From assembly GCA_903827955.1 (NCBI GenBank), contig CAIKKJ010000032.1, positions 1 to 39,645 on the forward strand: DNA of 39,645 nt. Reading direction: 5' to 3'. The DNA comes from an uncultured Verrucomicrobia subdivision 3 bacterium. GTDB lineage: Bacteria > Verrucomicrobiota > Verrucomicrobiia > Limisphaerales > UBA11358. Positions within the stretch are counted from its first letter, which is position 1. Each line of letters begins with the position of its first letter. Positions 7,203 through 18,598 of the stretch are shown here, in pieces. Both the position numbers and the translations under genes were made by a program. The notes beneath the pieces are model-generated. The model ran no database searches and had not been told where the DNA came from. It saw only the letters and a list, made by a program, of their open reading frames with translations.

Positions 7203-8111
7203 TTACTTTGAAATCGTTGTATCACTTGGCGGCGTAAAAGCGAAGTCCGCCTTGGTGAGCGGAATATTTGTTTGGATGTTGCTCAAGCGCATGACCTGCA
7301 CGCCGGGTCTTCCGTTGGAAGTAAATTCAAGGACATACATCGTGATGAATCCGGCGGGATTTACATAGACGTGCTGTTCAAAGGAGGAATTCTCGCCGCC
7401 GGCAATGTTGCCGTTCACATAGTGATGCTGGATGACGTCGTAGGTGACACCGTTGATCTCCTTCTGGCCTTCGCTCTTCAATTCGCCGGGCTTGGAGTAA
7501 TACAGAAAATGCAAAGCGGTCGCGGGATTGAAAAATGCCTGCAAAGCGATGCTGTCCCACAGGTGGATATTGCTGCCATCGGGCGAAGTGGGCGAAGTGC
7601 TGTAAGTGCCACCGCCGGGCACAAGACCAGAAGCCTGACGCGCACCGAGGATGGAATCAAACGGTGCGTCACGGAAGGTTCGGTTCGGAAGAAAGCTTTT
7701 TGGCGTGAACGTGTAAATCTTTTCGCCGTCGGCGGCGACGGGATTGGGAAACGCCGGACGCGCCATGTAGTCGTAGGTGATGCGCATGAAATTCGGCTTC
7801 ATCATCAGCACTTTGCCGGTAATAAGTTGCTGTTGCTTGACAGAAGTGACGGAGTAAGTGAAGTCGGCGGACACGGTCTGCGCGGCGGCGGCGGCGGTGG
7901 AGATTTTTTGCAGTAACGCGGTGACAGCCGGATCAGCCACGTCGGCTGGCACTGCATTCCATGAGCCGGTAGCGAGAACCGCGTCCGCTGTCGTGCTAGC
8001 GGCGCTGGAACAAACGCCGCACTTTGTCTGCCGTGAACCACAGCAGCCCGCCAACGTAAAAATTATTGCGACGATGCCAGACATGCCGACGAGATAATAA
8101 TTACGATTCAT
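7203..8111 (-). CDS. LolA/DUF2092-like outer-membrane lipoprotein
   Basis: A 302-residue protein with a lipoprotein signal peptide: hydrophobic IVAIIFTLAGC, with C23 as the lipidated cysteine. The mature part starts with a serine/alanine-rich linker and then a segment typical of the LolA/LolB fold: sequential strands TVSADFTYSVTSVKQQQ, ITGKVLMMKPNFMRITYD and DGEKIYTFTPK, then a C-terminal stretch matching DUF2092-type carriers. It probably binds a hydrophobic ligand or lipoprotein acyl chain at the periplasmic face of a membrane; this is inference. Its own promoter is visible (8141-8168), with AAGGGA before ATG 8111 as a fair ribosome site. It is not clustered with other Lol genes. Confidence 0.7.
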   Translation of the reverse strand: MNRNYYLVGMSGIVAIIFTLAGCCGSRQTKCGVCSSAASTTADAVLATGSWNAVPADVADPAVTALLQKISTAAAAAQTVSADFTYSVTSVKQQQLITGKVLMMKPNFMRITYDYMARPAFPNPVAADGEKIYTFTPKSFLPNRTFRDAPFDSILGARQASGLVPGGGTYSTSPTSPDGSNIHLWDSIALQAFFNPATALHFLYYSKPGELKSEGQKEINGVTYDVIQHHYVNGNIAGGENSSFEQHVYVNPAGFITMYVLEFTSNGRPGVQVMRLSNIQTNIPLTKADFAFTPPSDTTISK

Positions 8112-11130: not shown

Positions 11131-11757
11131 TCACGGCGTGACCACGCGCAGCATCACTTCATTCCGGCGGAAAAACGTCGGTGTCCACGGCGGATCGAAG
11201 TAGCCGTAAATCGCGCCGCCGGTCGCCTTCAAATTTTCCTGCGCCAGCCAGCCGGACAGTTTCGTCAGCGCGTTCGTTTCATTCTTCGCACTGCGCCCGC
11301 CGCTGAAGCGCAGCACGGCAAATTGTCCGCCGCTGATTTCCCGCACCGTCACGCCCGGATCGTTCGGCTTGGGCGCGGCGCTCGCGCTCATGTTTTTCGG
11401 CATCACGAACGCCATCGTCGCATTCGTCGCCCCGCCCGCCATGTAGACCGGCGTGGTCATGGCGATTTTTTGGCTGGCCGCGTTGTTGCCGCCGATGAAG
11501 CGGAAGAGCCGCATGAAACTGTCGTCCGAACCGCGCATCGGCGTCTCGACGATGACGAGCGTGGGATAATTCCGCAGCTCAATTTTCCCGCTGCTGCGGA
11601 CGACCTGATACGGCGCCGTCTCGTAACCGCCGCGCACCGTGCCGCAGCCGACGGCGATGATTCCGGTCAAACCGGCAACGATGCTTCCCATAAAAATTGG
11701 TTTCCAAAGTTTTTTCGTCGCGCTAGCGCGCGGCGGGATAATTTTTTCTACGTTCAC
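11131..11757 (-). CDS. SOUL-family heme-binding lipoprotein
   Basis: A SOUL/HEBP-like protein: YQVVRSSGKIELRNYPTLVI, then a FMRLFRFIGGNN block, KIAMTTPVYM, MAFVMPKNM, and the C-terminal WLAQENLKATGGAIYGYFDPPW followed by RRNEVMLRV. SOUL proteins bind heme or tetrapyrroles; here the protein seems exported and lipidated, because the N-terminus KKLWKPIFMGSIVAGLTG runs into IIAVGC. The start is uncertain. GTG 11757 gives a basic n-region and is used here; an upstream GTG at 11802 or ATG 11691 are alternatives. The last lacks the positive charges expected of a signal peptide. It is divergent from carA and convergent with the thioredoxin gene. Confidence 0.8.
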   Translation of the reverse strand: MNVEKIIPPRASATKKLWKPIFMGSIVAGLTGIIAVGCGTVRGGYETAPYQVVRSSGKIELRNYPTLVIVETPMRGSDDSFMRLFRFIGGNNAASQKIAMTTPVYMAGGATNATMAFVMPKNMSASAAPKPNDPGVTVREISGGQFAVLRFSGGRSAKNETNALTKLSGWLAQENLKATGGAIYGYFDPPWTPTFFRRNEVMLRVVTP

Positions 11758-11844
11758 GCCACGGAGTCTAACGCAAAATTTCCCACGCGCAAATGGGTTC
11801 ACGCTTGAACCAGCGCCGCAACAAAACTATCCTCCTGCCACTTG

Positions 11845-14318: not shown

Positions 14319-16193
14319 CTACGTCCGCGCGCTAAAACTTTTCCAGAATTTCCCCGGCAGCGAACCCAGCGCGATGAAGGCGAGTTGGCTCACGACAAAA
14401 AATACCAGCCATTTGAACGCCGCGTCCGTAAAACCGTAGCTGTGCAGGCCGATGCCTAGCATGTTCACGCCAAACCACGACCATGCGGTGACGATGTTGC
14501 CGCCGATGGCGCAGACCACCAGTCCGCGTTCGCGGATGATGCCGCCCCAGCGCAGATGCAAGATGAGCGCGTTCCACAACACGATGATGAGCGCGCCGTT
14601 TTCCTTCGGATCCCAGCCCCAAAATCTGCCCCATGATTGATCCGCCCAGATGCCGCCCAGCACCGTGCCGACGAAGCTGAACAACGTGGCGAAACAAACG
14701 ATGCCGTAAATCATCCGCGCCAGAGATTTGCCGGTTGCGGCATCGAGCGTCCGGGTGAAGAAACCGCGCAGGATGTAAATCAGCGCTAAAAATCCCGCGA
14801 CGAACGTGCTGGCGTAACCGACTGTCACGGCGACGACGTGCGTGGCCAGCCAGAAATTGGTGTCCAGCACCGCGCGCATCATTTCCATGGTGTCGCCTTC
14901 CAGCGCGAGGTGATGCGCAATGATGAGCGTGATGAAGCCGATGCCCGAAGCGACCACCGCGCCGATGCCGTTCTTGTGAAATTTTTCCAAAATCAAACCC
15001 AGCACGCACGCGCCCCAGCCGATGAAGATGGCAGAGGAATAAAGATTCGTCACCGGCGGCCGGCCTTCCAGCACCATGCGATACACCAAGCCGACTGTAT
15101 GAATGCCGAGCGCCAGCCAGATTAGCCATACGGAAGAACGGCGCAGGGTTTCTGACAGGTTGAACCATGAAAAAATCGCAAGCAGTCCGGCGAGGACGTA
15201 AATCACCATCGCGTTGTAAAACGGTTCCATCTGGTTAAAAAATTGTTCCGCGCGCGCCTTGGCGATGGCGGGCTGCTGCGCGGTCGTCAGCTTCGATTGC
15301 AAATCATGCAAGGCCGCGTTGAAGTCGTCGGAATTATCCGTCACGAGCGCGCTGGACATTTTGGCATAGTCGCGGGTGAAGTCATCCACCGTTCCGCCGC
15401 GCGGAGCCTCGAGCAGCGCATCGCCCACGCGCCGCCAATCGTGCGTCGCGCCTGCCGGTGGCAGCACCAGTGGCGGTTCCATACGGCTCATGTATTGGAA
15501 CGCGCTGATGTAGCCGGCGAACTGGTTGAATTTTTGCTCGTCAAATTTTTCACCGGCCTGCTGCGCTTTCGCGGCGGCGACGGCGTCGGGGATCAGCTTT
15601 TCAAATGCGTTCAGTTCCGCCGCCCAGTCCGTTGCGCCCTCGGGTTGGACGGTGTTTTTTAACTGCGCATAAAGTCCCAGCCGTTCGTGCATTTTGGCGA
15701 CGGCGTTTTCGTAGGCGGTGCGGTCGGTGGCGGCGATTTTTTGCACGCGCACGTTTTCACGTTCGAACGCCTCGTTGTTGGTTGCGATCTGATTCCACGA
15801 ATAATGTTTGCCGTCGGATTGCGCGCCCTTTTCCGGCAGTTTGAGGAGCGAAATCAAATCGGGATTGTCCGCGCGGAACACCGGCCAGCCGTCGGCCACG
15901 GCGGAATTCATCATCACGTTCGCGAGCCATTCGGTTGCGGAAATGATTTTTGGTTTTTCGTTCCATGCCTTCCACGGCTCCAGGTTGAGCGTCTGTTTCT
16001 CGCGCAGTTGCAGCAGCGCGTTGCGGGCGATGGAATCAAGCGGCTTCACGCGGCCGTTGAACACGACGGGCAGCCGGCCAAATTCAGTGAAGGCAAAATC
16101 TTTTTCCGGCGGCGGCTGGATTTTACCGAAGAACCACAGCGCCATCAAAAACATCAGCAGCGGCGGCGTCCATTTTTGGAGGAATTTTTTCAT
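14319..16193 (-). CDS. ccsA: System II cytochrome c assembly protein CcsA with large N-terminal domain
   Basis: A 624-residue membrane protein that, with ResB, moves heme across the membrane and ligates it to apocytochrome c. The C-terminal ~300 residues carry the CcsA signatures: several membrane helices, the tryptophan-rich heme-handling motif WGRFWGWDPKE, and conserved histidines in GIHTVGLVYRM, ATHVVAVTVGYAS and GLHSYGF. After the first helix (about 9-25), residues ~30-330 form a large extracytoplasmic region starting FGRLPVVFNGRVKPLDSIAR, which standard CcsA proteins lack but which is seen in Planctomycetes/Verrucomicrobia homologues. ATG 16193 overlaps the ResB stop as ATGA (coupled). 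It is the last gene of the operon 18598-14319. Confidence 0.9.
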   Translation of the reverse strand: MKKFLQKWTPPLLMFLMALWFFGKIQPPPEKDFAFTEFGRLPVVFNGRVKPLDSIARNALLQLREKQTLNLEPWKAWNEKPKIISATEWLANVMMNSAVADGWPVFRADNPDLISLLKLPEKGAQSDGKHYSWNQIATNNEAFERENVRVQKIAATDRTAYENAVAKMHERLGLYAQLKNTVQPEGATDWAAELNAFEKLIPDAVAAAKAQQAGEKFDEQKFNQFAGYISAFQYMSRMEPPLVLPPAGATHDWRRVGDALLEAPRGGTVDDFTRDYAKMSSALVTDNSDDFNAALHDLQSKLTTAQQPAIAKARAEQFFNQMEPFYNAMVIYVLAGLLAIFSWFNLSETLRRSSVWLIWLALGIHTVGLVYRMVLEGRPPVTNLYSSAIFIGWGACVLGLILEKFHKNGIGAVVASGIGFITLIIAHHLALEGDTMEMMRAVLDTNFWLATHVVAVTVGYASTFVAGFLALIYILRGFFTRTLDAATGKSLARMIYGIVCFATLFSFVGTVLGGIWADQSWGRFWGWDPKENGALIIVLWNALILHLRWGGIIRERGLVVCAIGGNIVTAWSWFGVNMLGIGLHSYGFTDAAFKWLVFFVVSQLAFIALGSLPGKFWKSFSART

Positions 16194-17437
16194 TTGGCTT
16201 TGGGTTTGGAGACAAATTTGACGAGGTGAAACAAGAACTGAATCGCCAGCCCCAAGCCCACCATCGCGCAACCGACATAGGGCGTAAGCCAGCTGGGATT
16301 ACGCACGACCGACAGCACGGAAAACGGTGTCTGGCCAGCGCGTTCAAACATTTCGCCGGCGCCCATCTGGTATTGATAAAACGTGTATCCGCCGTAGCGC
16401 AGCGGGTGGTTCATGGAAATTTCCACTTCGCGGTTTTCCCCGGCTTGCGGGTTTTGCACCTGCACGCGGCTGCGAAAATCCTTGGGAATATCCGTGCCGG
16501 GATAAACCGTGTGCGTGGCCTTGACCAGCGCGAGCGAAAAGGAATGATAGATGCGCAACGGCCGCAGCAGGAACGTGAATTTTTTGCCGGCCACTTCAAC
16601 TGTCTGCGGGGCGGCGAGCCGCGTGGCGATGTTGTGCGCCATCTCCGCGCCGACCTGTTGCAAATAACCTTGCTGGACATTGGCGATAAGCGCGGCATCG
16701 CCGGACCAGTCGGACGCCACCCAGCCGCCCAGCGGGGTTTTTCCGACGGCCAGTTCAATCACCGCCGAGGGGACGTTTTTTTGTTCGCTGCTCTTCACTT
16801 CCGGCGCATTGGTGAAATCAAAGTCCAACGCCACGCCGTTGCTGACCACCGGCGGCGCGCTTCGCATCATCGGCGCGCGGAAGCTCAAGTCGGAATTTTT
16901 CCAGTAATTTTTCACGCGCACGGTGAATGGTAGGCTGCTGAGGTTCAGTTCGTCGCCGGGCTTGAGCAATTTGGCCGGAATGGCCGTGACTTCGGTGCCA
17001 TTGATAAAGATGAGTTCGTAGTCCGTCGCGCTTTCAGAATAGTTGCGGGTTTCACCCTCGGTAAACTGCATCAACATTTCGCGCGACAGCAGGTCGGTCG
17101 CGAGCTGGCCGACTAACAGCAAGATCACCCCGGCGTGCGCGAGCTGGATGCCAAGTTTTTTGGTGGTGAACTCAAAACGGTAGATGTGCGCGCAAATCAG
17201 GTTCACCACCAACAGCACGCCGAGGAGATAACCGCCGGGCAGCAGCAAGGGCACTTTGTGTCCAAAGAAATTTGCCCCAACGACAATCCATTGTTTGAAG
17301 TAATGCGCCTGTGCGCCGTAAAGCCCTTCATCCGCCTGCGCGATGGTGCCAATGAACACCAGCACGATGGAGAACGCCAGTAGCGTGACGGTCAGCTTGA
17401 GCGATGTGAGGAGCGCGACTGTTTTTTTGATGAGCAT
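16190..17437 (-). CDS. resB: ResB-like cytochrome c biogenesis protein
   Basis: A 415-residue protein of the ResB/Ccs1 family, partner of CcsA in System II heme delivery. The N-terminal membrane helices (LLTSLKLTVTLLAFSIVLVF, then YLLGVLLVVNLICAHIYRF and GIQLAHAGVILLLVGQLATD) are followed by a long periplasmic domain with beta-rich sequence (AKLLKPGDELNLSSLPFTVRV, TVEVAGKKFTFLLRPLRIYHS). A last helix sits near YVGCAMVGLGLAIQFLFHLV. The conserved NHPLRYGGYTFYQ before the last helix is a clear ResB mark. The start is ATG 17437, 18 bp after the lipoprotein stop (17456), and the gene overlaps ccsA by four bases. Confidence 0.88.
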   Translation of the reverse strand: MLIKKTVALLTSLKLTVTLLAFSIVLVFIGTIAQADEGLYGAQAHYFKQWIVVGANFFGHKVPLLLPGGYLLGVLLVVNLICAHIYRFEFTTKKLGIQLAHAGVILLLVGQLATDLLSREMLMQFTEGETRNYSESATDYELIFINGTEVTAIPAKLLKPGDELNLSSLPFTVRVKNYWKNSDLSFRAPMMRSAPPVVSNGVALDFDFTNAPEVKSSEQKNVPSAVIELAVGKTPLGGWVASDWSGDAALIANVQQGYLQQVGAEMAHNIATRLAAPQTVEVAGKKFTFLLRPLRIYHSFSLALVKATHTVYPGTDIPKDFRSRVQVQNPQAGENREVEISMNHPLRYGGYTFYQYQMGAGEMFERAGQTPFSVLSVVRNPSWLTPYVGCAMVGLGLAIQFLFHLVKFVSKPKAK

Positions 17438-17455: not shown

Positions 17456-18598
17456 TCACGGATATTTTGCCGATTGCACGAACCGGATGAACGCTTCTTT
17501 TTGTTGCGCGACCACGCTGGCATCGCCCATGAGCTTGTAAAACCACGTCGCGCCATTGGCCGGAACCACCACGCCGATGAGCCGTGCCGGCTTGTTCACT
17601 CGCAGGTCGGTTCCCGAAATGTCCACCAGCACCGCCTTTACACCAGCGGCGTCAATCGTCGGCAGCTTGCCGATTTCGTCGTCGCCAAACGGCGGCTGAC
17701 TGAGCTGGCCGCGCCAGCGGTTCAAATTCGCCGCGAGCCCGCCGCCATCTCCGGCAAGCTGGCTGACGTTCACCGCTGCGGCGGCCTCGCCATCGCCTTT
17801 GATGACGTAGCGTGCGACGAGAAATTGTGCGAGCTGTCCTGGCTGCCAACCAGCGGGAACCGTCCACGCCGGATGGTCGCCGGTGTCTGCGGCTGGCGCG
17901 GTCGCCGCCATGCCGGGAAGCGCTGGATGCGACGGTGGCAGCTTGCTTATGTCCATGGTGGATGGCGGCGCGAGCTTGCCGAAATCCACCGACTTGAGGA
18001 ACGCGATGAAATTTGCTTTTTGATTTTCAACCAGTGCGGCGTCGCCGGTCATCTTGAAATACCAAACGGCCTCATCAGCGTGGAGAATCGCGCCGAGGAT
18101 GCGTTCCACTTCGCCGCTGCCGGGCGCCGTGCCGGTGAGGTCATAAAGTTCGCCGGGCTTGCCCGCAATTTCCACGGCTTCGGCGGATTTTTTAACCGCG
18201 TCATCGTCCAGCGTCGGCAGGCCGATCTGGCCGCGCCAGCGGTTCACATTCGCCGTGTCGCCGGCGGAAACGCCGCCGAGCGGAATCACGCTGACGTCCG
18301 CGTTTTTTCCATTTTCAGTAACTTCAAAACTAGCAACGCGCATCTGGGTGATCGCTTTTTCCTTCCAGCCGTCGGGCAAGGTGTATTTCAATTTGGGCAA
18401 ACCGCTGTTGTCCGGCGCGGCCAGTCCGGCAGGCATGGTCATTGGCATGGCGGCGGGTGAAGCGGCCACGGGCTGTGCCTGTGGCACGACGGTTTCGTTG
18501 GTGGCGACCTGATAGACTTTCACGCTGTCGCGCCCGCAGCCAGTGAAGGTGACGGCCACCAGTGCGGCGACCAGGCTGGAAATGGAAATGCGTTTCAT
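17456..18598 (-). CDS. Internally duplicated lipoprotein of the cytochrome c operon
   Basis: A 380-residue lipoprotein: the N-terminus MKRISISSLVAALVAVTFTG leads to C21, the lipidated cysteine. A spacer rich in Pro, Met and Ala (about 45-65) precedes two related domains at about residues 72-206 and 245-378. Both share the pattern LP/VP-x-GW, a strand-rich stretch ending in VNxSxLxG or VSVIPLGG, the signature NRWRGQ (119-124 and 293-298), a DL(T/I)SGT-like step, the block AxWYFKMTGDA / ATWFYKLMGDA and a final FIxFL/VQS. I do not recognise a characterised family. First gene of a three-gene unit with resB (18 bp on) and ccsA, so a role in heme delivery or apocytochrome handling at the periplasmic side is inferred. 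ATG 18598 is chosen over an upstream in-frame codon at 18694. Confidence 0.8.
   Translation of the reverse strand: MKRISISSLVAALVAVTFTGCGRDSVKVYQVATNETVVPQAQPVAASPAAMPMTMPAGLAAPDNSGLPKLKYTLPDGWKEKAITQMRVASFEVTENGKNADVSVIPLGGVSAGDTANVNRWRGQIGLPTLDDDAVKKSAEAVEIAGKPGELYDLTGTAPGSGEVERILGAILHADEAVWYFKMTGDAALVENQKANFIAFLKSVDFGKLAPPSTMDISKLPPSHPALPGMAATAPAADTGDHPAWTVPAGWQPGQLAQFLVARYVIKGDGEAAAAVNVSQLAGDGGGLAANLNRWRGQLSQPPFGDDEIGKLPTIDAAGVKAVLVDISGTDLRVNKPARLIGVVVPANGATWFYKLMGDASVVAQQKEAFIRFVQSAKYP

Follow-up and report, generated by a model that had tools for sequence, protein, structure and literature searches.

The stretch of DNA analysed here (hereafter the window, 39,645 nucleotides) carries on its minus strand a gene for a putative lipoprotein, followed by two genes of cytochrome c assembly. 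A preliminary description of the window had proposed a lipoprotein-resB-ccsA unit at this place, and the two neighbours of the lipoprotein gene were indeed identified as ResB (PF05140) and CcsA (PF01578). The following features were delimited.

17456..18598, minus strand: lipoprotein gene (380 aa) with two predicted PsbP/Mog1-like domains, from the translation, the internal homology, the AlphaFold model m35fcff520d51 and the fold matches
18533..18598, minus strand: predicted signal peptide and lipobox, residues 1-22, MKRISISSLVAALVAVTFTGCG; the candidate lipidation Cys is residue 21
18500..18538, minus strand: Cys-adjacent peptide CGRDSVKVYQVAT, the window version of [VI]-[KR]-V-Y-R-V-[PA]-K-[ED]
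17981..18406, minus strand: domain 1, about residues 65-206, from the internal homology and the AlphaFold model m4a9db4ea0fe2 of a single unit, computed on 116 sequences (pLDDT 93.2, pTM 0.89)
17459..17878, minus strand: domain 2, about residues 241-380, from the internal homology and the AlphaFold model
16190..17437, minus strand: ResB (CcsB), PF05140 at 3.3e-15, 18 bases downstream of the lipoprotein gene
14319..16193, minus strand: CcsA, PF01578 at 2.5e-22, an internal ATG being taken as start (the listed ORF begins at 16271)

The reading frame of the lipoprotein starts with an ATG at 18598 and its stop codon ends at 17456. The N-terminus has the features of a bacterial lipoprotein signal peptide, with a lipobox ending in ...TFTGC, from which we infer that the Cys is acylated and the protein anchored by a lipid. 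Between the signal peptide and the domains there is a Pro/Ala-rich stretch. Domains 1 and 2 share 35% identity over 136 positions (BLASTP E 1e-29), and their local alignment score is 229, whereas none of 2000 shuffles of domain 2 scored above 66. These values confirm the two homologous domains announced in the preliminary description, of which the motifs NRWRGQ, DLTGT/DISGT and AVWYFKMTGDA/ATWFYKLMGDA are all present. A promoter and terminator scan of the window gave no excess over shuffled sequences.

With the internal ATG at 16193 taken as its start, ccsA overlaps the end of resB by ATGA. The CcsA protein was matched by TIGR03144 at 8.7e-37, a score which is below the curated cut-off (127.2 vs 187.6 bits). 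The ResB-family and CcsA-family profiles matched the solved CcsBA structure 7s9y at 8.2e-21 and 3.7e-41, respectively. His101 of the window ResB was aligned to His83 of the 7s9y chain (position counted along the alignment) and is invariant in alignments of 37 and of 69 rows. In CcsA, the WWD-type motif WGRFWGWDPKEN and the residues His478, His572 and His610 (numbering of the 650-aa ORF) are invariant in 24 rows. The pair thus has the WWD motif, the two external and the two transmembrane His of a System II core, and as judged from these residues both window proteins belong to that core. The residues kept here are aligned to the four His that we take to be the ligands of 7s9y. The role of the His ligands of CcsBA is partly documented in the available text of PMC10663686. 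As for System I, CcmB was searched in the genome of the window and gave no match (control matches in 6/14 genomes).

Two other genes of the window are mentioned here for their position. A SOUL-family heme-binding protein (PF04832, 2e-39) is encoded at 11131-11802 on the minus strand, about 2.5 kb downstream of ccsA; its start is lipobox-like by eye, and it could be a heme-binding lipoprotein near the heme-ligation operon. At 7203-8111, on the same strand, lies a gene for a 302-aa protein that starts with a lipobox-like sequence and matches no Pfam family; by eye the protein is LolA-like.

The lipoprotein was found in 57 of the 59 relatives' genomes searched, the window's own included. In the first 30 loci ResB adjoins the lipoprotein gene without exception (30/30), downstream and on the same strand, and CcsA was visible in 29 of them, the remaining locus ending right after ResB. 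Among the 28 further loci L032-L059, which belong to the same genus or order, ResB is adjacent in 27 and the last one (L056) ends at a contig edge. A true exception is the second copy present in G020 (L068), which is followed by 3.5 kb of sequence without ResB. Another set consisted of 80 named loci, selected with the peptide NVNRWRGQ as the best 80 of 591; it contained 75 loci adjacent to ResB and five matches situated 0-71 bases from a contig end; this set is not independent, because it partially overlaps with the genomes of the other counts. Rho, the upstream neighbour in the window, was used as a control and adjoins the lipoprotein gene in 17 of the 67 testable named loci, and on this adjacency a link to Rho instead of ResB was rejected.

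When 387 genomes of the window's phylum (Verrucomicrobiota) were searched, the domain was detected in 131 and ResB in 185. All the genomes with the domain also contain ResB (131/131), against 54/256 of the others. Among the matches listed for this phylum, 116/126 genes lie by coordinates directly upstream of ResB on the same strand, in a count based on ResB rows with E of 6.1e-43 or better, ten weaker second pieces being excluded. One of the 124 genomes with a strong ResB (E 6.1e-43 or better), namely G173, is without any domain match, and the copy of G235 found among the matches listed is 16 kb away from ResB. In G173, ResB (L213, 2518-3726, minus strand) stands without the lipoprotein, and the gene immediately upstream codes for a protein of 1085 aa which contains CXXCH motifs and the end of which resembles, by eye, a formylglycine enzyme. 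The genome G034 harbors two complete lipoprotein-ResB-CcsA units (L036 and L038), the ResB proteins of which are very dissimilar, one being 38% and the other 58% identical to the window ResB.

A second phylum was represented by 199 genomes of the phylum of a Gemmataceae MAG, presumably Planctomycetota. The domain was detected in 113 of these genomes and ResB in 141; ResB is present in 98/113 genomes with the domain vs 43/86 of the others, and the remaining 15/113 domain genomes gave no ResB match. Among the matches listed, 70/112 genes, in 65 genomes, adjoin ResB, and 42/112 do not, 40 of the latter having a single domain match. For the count of 70/112, ResB rows to about 1e-24 and some N-terminal pieces were used and weaker rows were left out, so that genes beside a weak ResB were counted as non-adjacent. 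No adjacent copy was seen, among the matches listed, in 10/75 genomes with a strong ResB, and in at least one of these ten (G482) the contig ends beside ResB. In four loci of the second phylum (L200, L201, L202 and L203), a single ORF of about 1200-1313 residues encodes both ResB and CcsA; its ResB part contains additional insertions without a match to the unit profile.

From the adjacency and co-occurrence counts, the first of the two phyla shows the tighter link with ResB. The neighbourhood expected of a System II accessory protein was thus observed chiefly in Verrucomicrobiota, and in a looser form in Planctomycetota. The adjacency counts support the view that the lipoprotein is tied to ResB/CcsA across both phyla. 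The expectation that it always sits next to ResB goes too far: this position is the nearly constant one in Verrucomicrobiota and the usual one in Planctomycetota, exceptions being present and more numerous in the latter. In G554, ResB (L215, 3344-4504, plus strand) has no adjacent lipoprotein gene, and a gene for a multi-CXXCH protein is found just upstream on the opposite strand. The preliminary description had named two observations that would speak against its proposal; the first of them, a gene not conserved next to resB in relatives, was looked for and is not what these genomes revealed.

The domain was also found inserted in ResB itself. In L059 (G036, from the window's order), a 586-residue ORF comprises a match to positions 2-52 of the ResB profile, a unit at residues 118-255 and a match to positions 64-381 of the ResB profile. 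In L199 (G534, second phylum), a 1345-residue ORF contains successively ResB (5-47), a unit (118-245), ResB again and CcsA. Both insertions interrupt ResB at the same loop, which joins its first two hydrophobic segments and would be on the periplasmic side if the topology of ResB follows that of CcsB in 7s9y. In both cases a separate unit-bearing gene is present just upstream, the one of L059 being cut by the contig start. These two natural fusions are the strongest evidence that the domain may work at ResB.

A strict lipobox regular expression was satisfied by 135 of the 169 ResB-adjacent homologues. In most ResB-adjacent homologues the lipobox Cys is immediately followed by the approximate motif of the Cys-adjacent peptide, for which the window sequence is CGRDSVKVYQVATNE. 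The core expression of this peptide, written after the sequences had been inspected, was found in 115/159 ResB-adjacent homologues (10/169 rows with a short N-terminus being set aside), whereas 200 rounds of shuffling gave 1.06 on average and 5 at most. Among 18 non-adjacent genes, nine (L061-L066, L189, L216 and L217) code for single-domain proteins with no lipobox by the regular expression; most of the other nine are located at contig ends and have the ResB-linked type of N-terminus. In view of the N-termini of these 18 genes, the Cys-adjacent peptide seems to characterise the ResB-linked form. The single-domain paralogues L061-L066, which are away from ResB, share about FxFGP..GG..AN[VI]xRW, and no Pfam family was matched by more than one protein of the set containing them.

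Forms with one, two and three domains were all found before ResB, and a single domain match was recorded in 92/116 adjacent genes (among the matches listed for the window's phylum, where some second domains may be unlisted). As one- and three-domain forms occupy the same place, the duplication was rejected as the key feature of the protein. In a midpoint-rooted tree of 307 units, first and second domains are mostly in separate clades, such as a 98-tip clade made of 89 first domains and 9 singles and a 97-tip clade holding 88 second domains, while single-domain forms are scattered and a few clades are mixed; the support of the large clades is about 0.3 to 0.95. This separation suggests one old duplication followed by losses, which is not a defining property of the family.

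The full lipoprotein matched no Pfam family and a single NCBIfam row, below the cut-off. When 57 aligned units were scanned at E up to 0.1, no family was found in more than one member and none was better than E 0.03; PsbP (PF01789) appeared in 1/57 units at E 0.044, which does not make the units members of that family. Comparison with the PDB by sequence gave chance-level rows for the lipoprotein and nothing for the unit profile. According to these profile searches, the domain is a family absent from Pfam and NCBIfam.

The whole lipoprotein was modelled by AlphaFold with a mean pLDDT of 81.7, both domains being mostly above 90. Foldseek and VIA-align placed the two modelled domains in the PsbP/Mog1/LpqN/DcrB/Eag fold group, an alpha/beta fold in which helices accompany an antiparallel central sheet. 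The best match is LpqN (VIA Z 12.1-12.2; rmsd 3.2 over 137 residues for the unit model), and the others are Apa (Z ~11), Mog1 (Z 9.7-10.0, over 134-135 residues of the unit model), MTC28 and the Eag chaperones (both Z ~10), PsbP and CyanoP (Z 7.5-10.1 over about 124-132 residues; CyanoP 2xb3, Z 9.7 over 129) and DcrB (Z 8.1-8.4). The Foldseek TM-scores of the unit are moderate (0.45-0.59 by query, among the first 30 matches listed), and a best VIA Z of 7-8 is common even without a clear match; the assignment was made because many rows of one fold group agree, with Z of 8-12 over most of the domain. The models themselves are confident, and a shared fold by itself proves no function. The folds of CcmE and thioredoxin are absent from the fold matches listed, which by itself excludes nothing. 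The second observation that would have spoken against the proposal, a match to a characterised enzyme family, was not obtained either: no enzyme family was above the cut-off by sequence and none was among the top fold matches.

Several proteins with the PsbP/Mog1 fold are adaptors, chaperones or extrinsic subunits. PsbP/CyanoP and the PsbP-like subunit of the NDH complex, which are single-domain extrinsic subunits of energy-transducing membrane complexes, have the fold predicted for the lipoprotein domain; the identity is 9-15%, no PsbP Pfam match is above the cut-off and, in contrast to these subunits, the window protein is duplicated and located beside ResB. The mycobacterial LpqN, MTC28 and Apa and the enterobacterial DcrB are exported proteins of the same fold, LpqN and DcrB being lipoproteins, but no relation with the window protein was detected by sequence, and we know of no link between these four proteins and cytochromes. 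The Eag chaperones EagT6 and SciW (DUF1795) also share the fold (Z about 10), but they are cytoplasmic chaperones of type VI secretion, and again no relation was detected by sequence. In the available part of the published description, the Eag chaperones stabilise transmembrane segments of a partner.

Because the gene adjoins ResB/CcsA in both phyla and the domain occurs twice inside ResB, the lipoprotein is probably an extra, undescribed part of the ResB-CcsA machine; its partnership with ResB-CcsA is well supported by the genomic data. We consider it fairly probable that it serves the System II holocytochrome c synthase, ResB-CcsA, as a dedicated partner in the periplasm and takes part in the apocytochrome step. 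The sequences contribute the duplication, the gene order, the conservation in two phyla and the domain inside ResB in two genomes; the models contribute the fold, and we infer that the protein is anchored by a lipid, docks on ResB in the periplasm and acts on the apocytochrome. The Cys-anchored N-terminus and the YRVPKE-like peptide would hold the lipoprotein at a membrane, and one to three PsbP/Mog1-like domains would sit over the periplasmic side of ResB, where they would most likely help to present or hold apocytochrome c while CcsA ligates heme. Perhaps the lipoprotein would also keep the ResB-CcsA complex together. Holding apocytochromes, one of the two roles put forward in the preliminary description, is thus possible. 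A protein-protein role is what remains, because the lack of conserved His and Cys in the domains speaks against heme carriage and thiol redox. More tentatively, the Planctomycetota-Verrucomicrobiota group could possess a three-part System II, in which the lipoprotein, with its one to three domains and a Cys-YRVPKE peptide as tether, would be an obligate subunit capturing the apocytochrome and feeding its CXXCH site to CcsA. If true, it would act as a dedicated substrate receptor, a type of component that the literature searched does not describe for System II.

The lipoprotein could also be a purely structural or assembly subunit, which would stabilise ResB-CcsA as PsbP-type proteins do photosynthetic complexes and would never touch the cytochrome. 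This possibility, which we hold to be rather doubtful, is compatible with the presence of PsbP and of the NDH-complex PsbP-like subunit among the closest folds, and with the presence of the domain inside the ResB of L059 and L199. The present data do not separate it from apocytochrome presentation, and the variable number of domains (1-3) is not obviously explained by either reading. As both include docking on ResB, the likelihoods that we attach to them are not a strict partition.

The other role put forward in the preliminary description, the reception of heme, would make the lipoprotein a counterpart of the System I protein CcmE, receiving or carrying heme in the periplasm. The operon is shared with the heme channel, one Lys is invariant in 116 units and, in 66 full-length rows, a linker His (window residue 224) is present in 59% while a single Met site reaches 80% and a single Tyr site 71%. 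However, the 116 units have no conserved His or Cys ligand (best His column 22%, best Cys 1%, Met 59%, Tyr 36%), 58/116 units have no His at all, and a conserved heme-attaching His of the CcmE type was found neither in these units nor in the 66 full-length rows. Heme reception is therefore not supported and appears improbable. Moreover, CcsA already has its own external heme site (available text of PMC10663686). In the same text, CcmE, the System I heme chaperone, is a periplasmic partner of a heme-handling membrane protein; this role resembles that proposed here, but the window domains are devoid of a conserved His.

That the lipoprotein is a chance neighbour with an unrelated envelope function is very improbable. 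The genes away from ResB in the second phylum (42/112 among the matches listed) and the 15/113 domain genomes without a ResB match could be read in this way, but the 131/131 co-occurrence, the adjacency in two phyla, the two ResB insertions and the Rho control (17/67) argue against it. A thiol-redox helper of the ResA/CcsX type, reducing the apocytochrome cysteines, has the operon position in its favour and was rejected as hardly credible, since 110/116 units are without Cys, no redox-active CXXC was found in them, the models match PsbP/Mog1 folds and DsbD/CcdA-type matches are present elsewhere in the window's genome.

In the available part of PMC4222556, System II is composed of two core proteins (CcsB/ResB and CcsA) and of thiol-reducing helpers, and in that of PMC10663686, a 2023 paper, product release by System II is called speculative; no such lipoprotein part appears in the available parts of these two papers. 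The Helicobacter hepaticus CcsBA (7s9y/7s9z) is matched by the window ResB and CcsA profiles, with the WWD-type motif and the aligned His kept, whereas the window has an additional lipoprotein gene before resB. In a literature search covering the titles and abstract starts of the best matches, no lipoprotein beside ResB/CcsA was found, most subscription papers being outside its scope. Within the literature searched, a System II with an extra, undescribed subunit would be new, and its fold is already known.

To our knowledge, the way in which the apocytochrome is presented in System II is an open question. A partner conserved in two phyla, together with the ResB fusions, would give a concrete handle on this step. 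The natural fusions point to a docking site on ResB, and the lipoprotein defines a domain missing from Pfam and NCBIfam.
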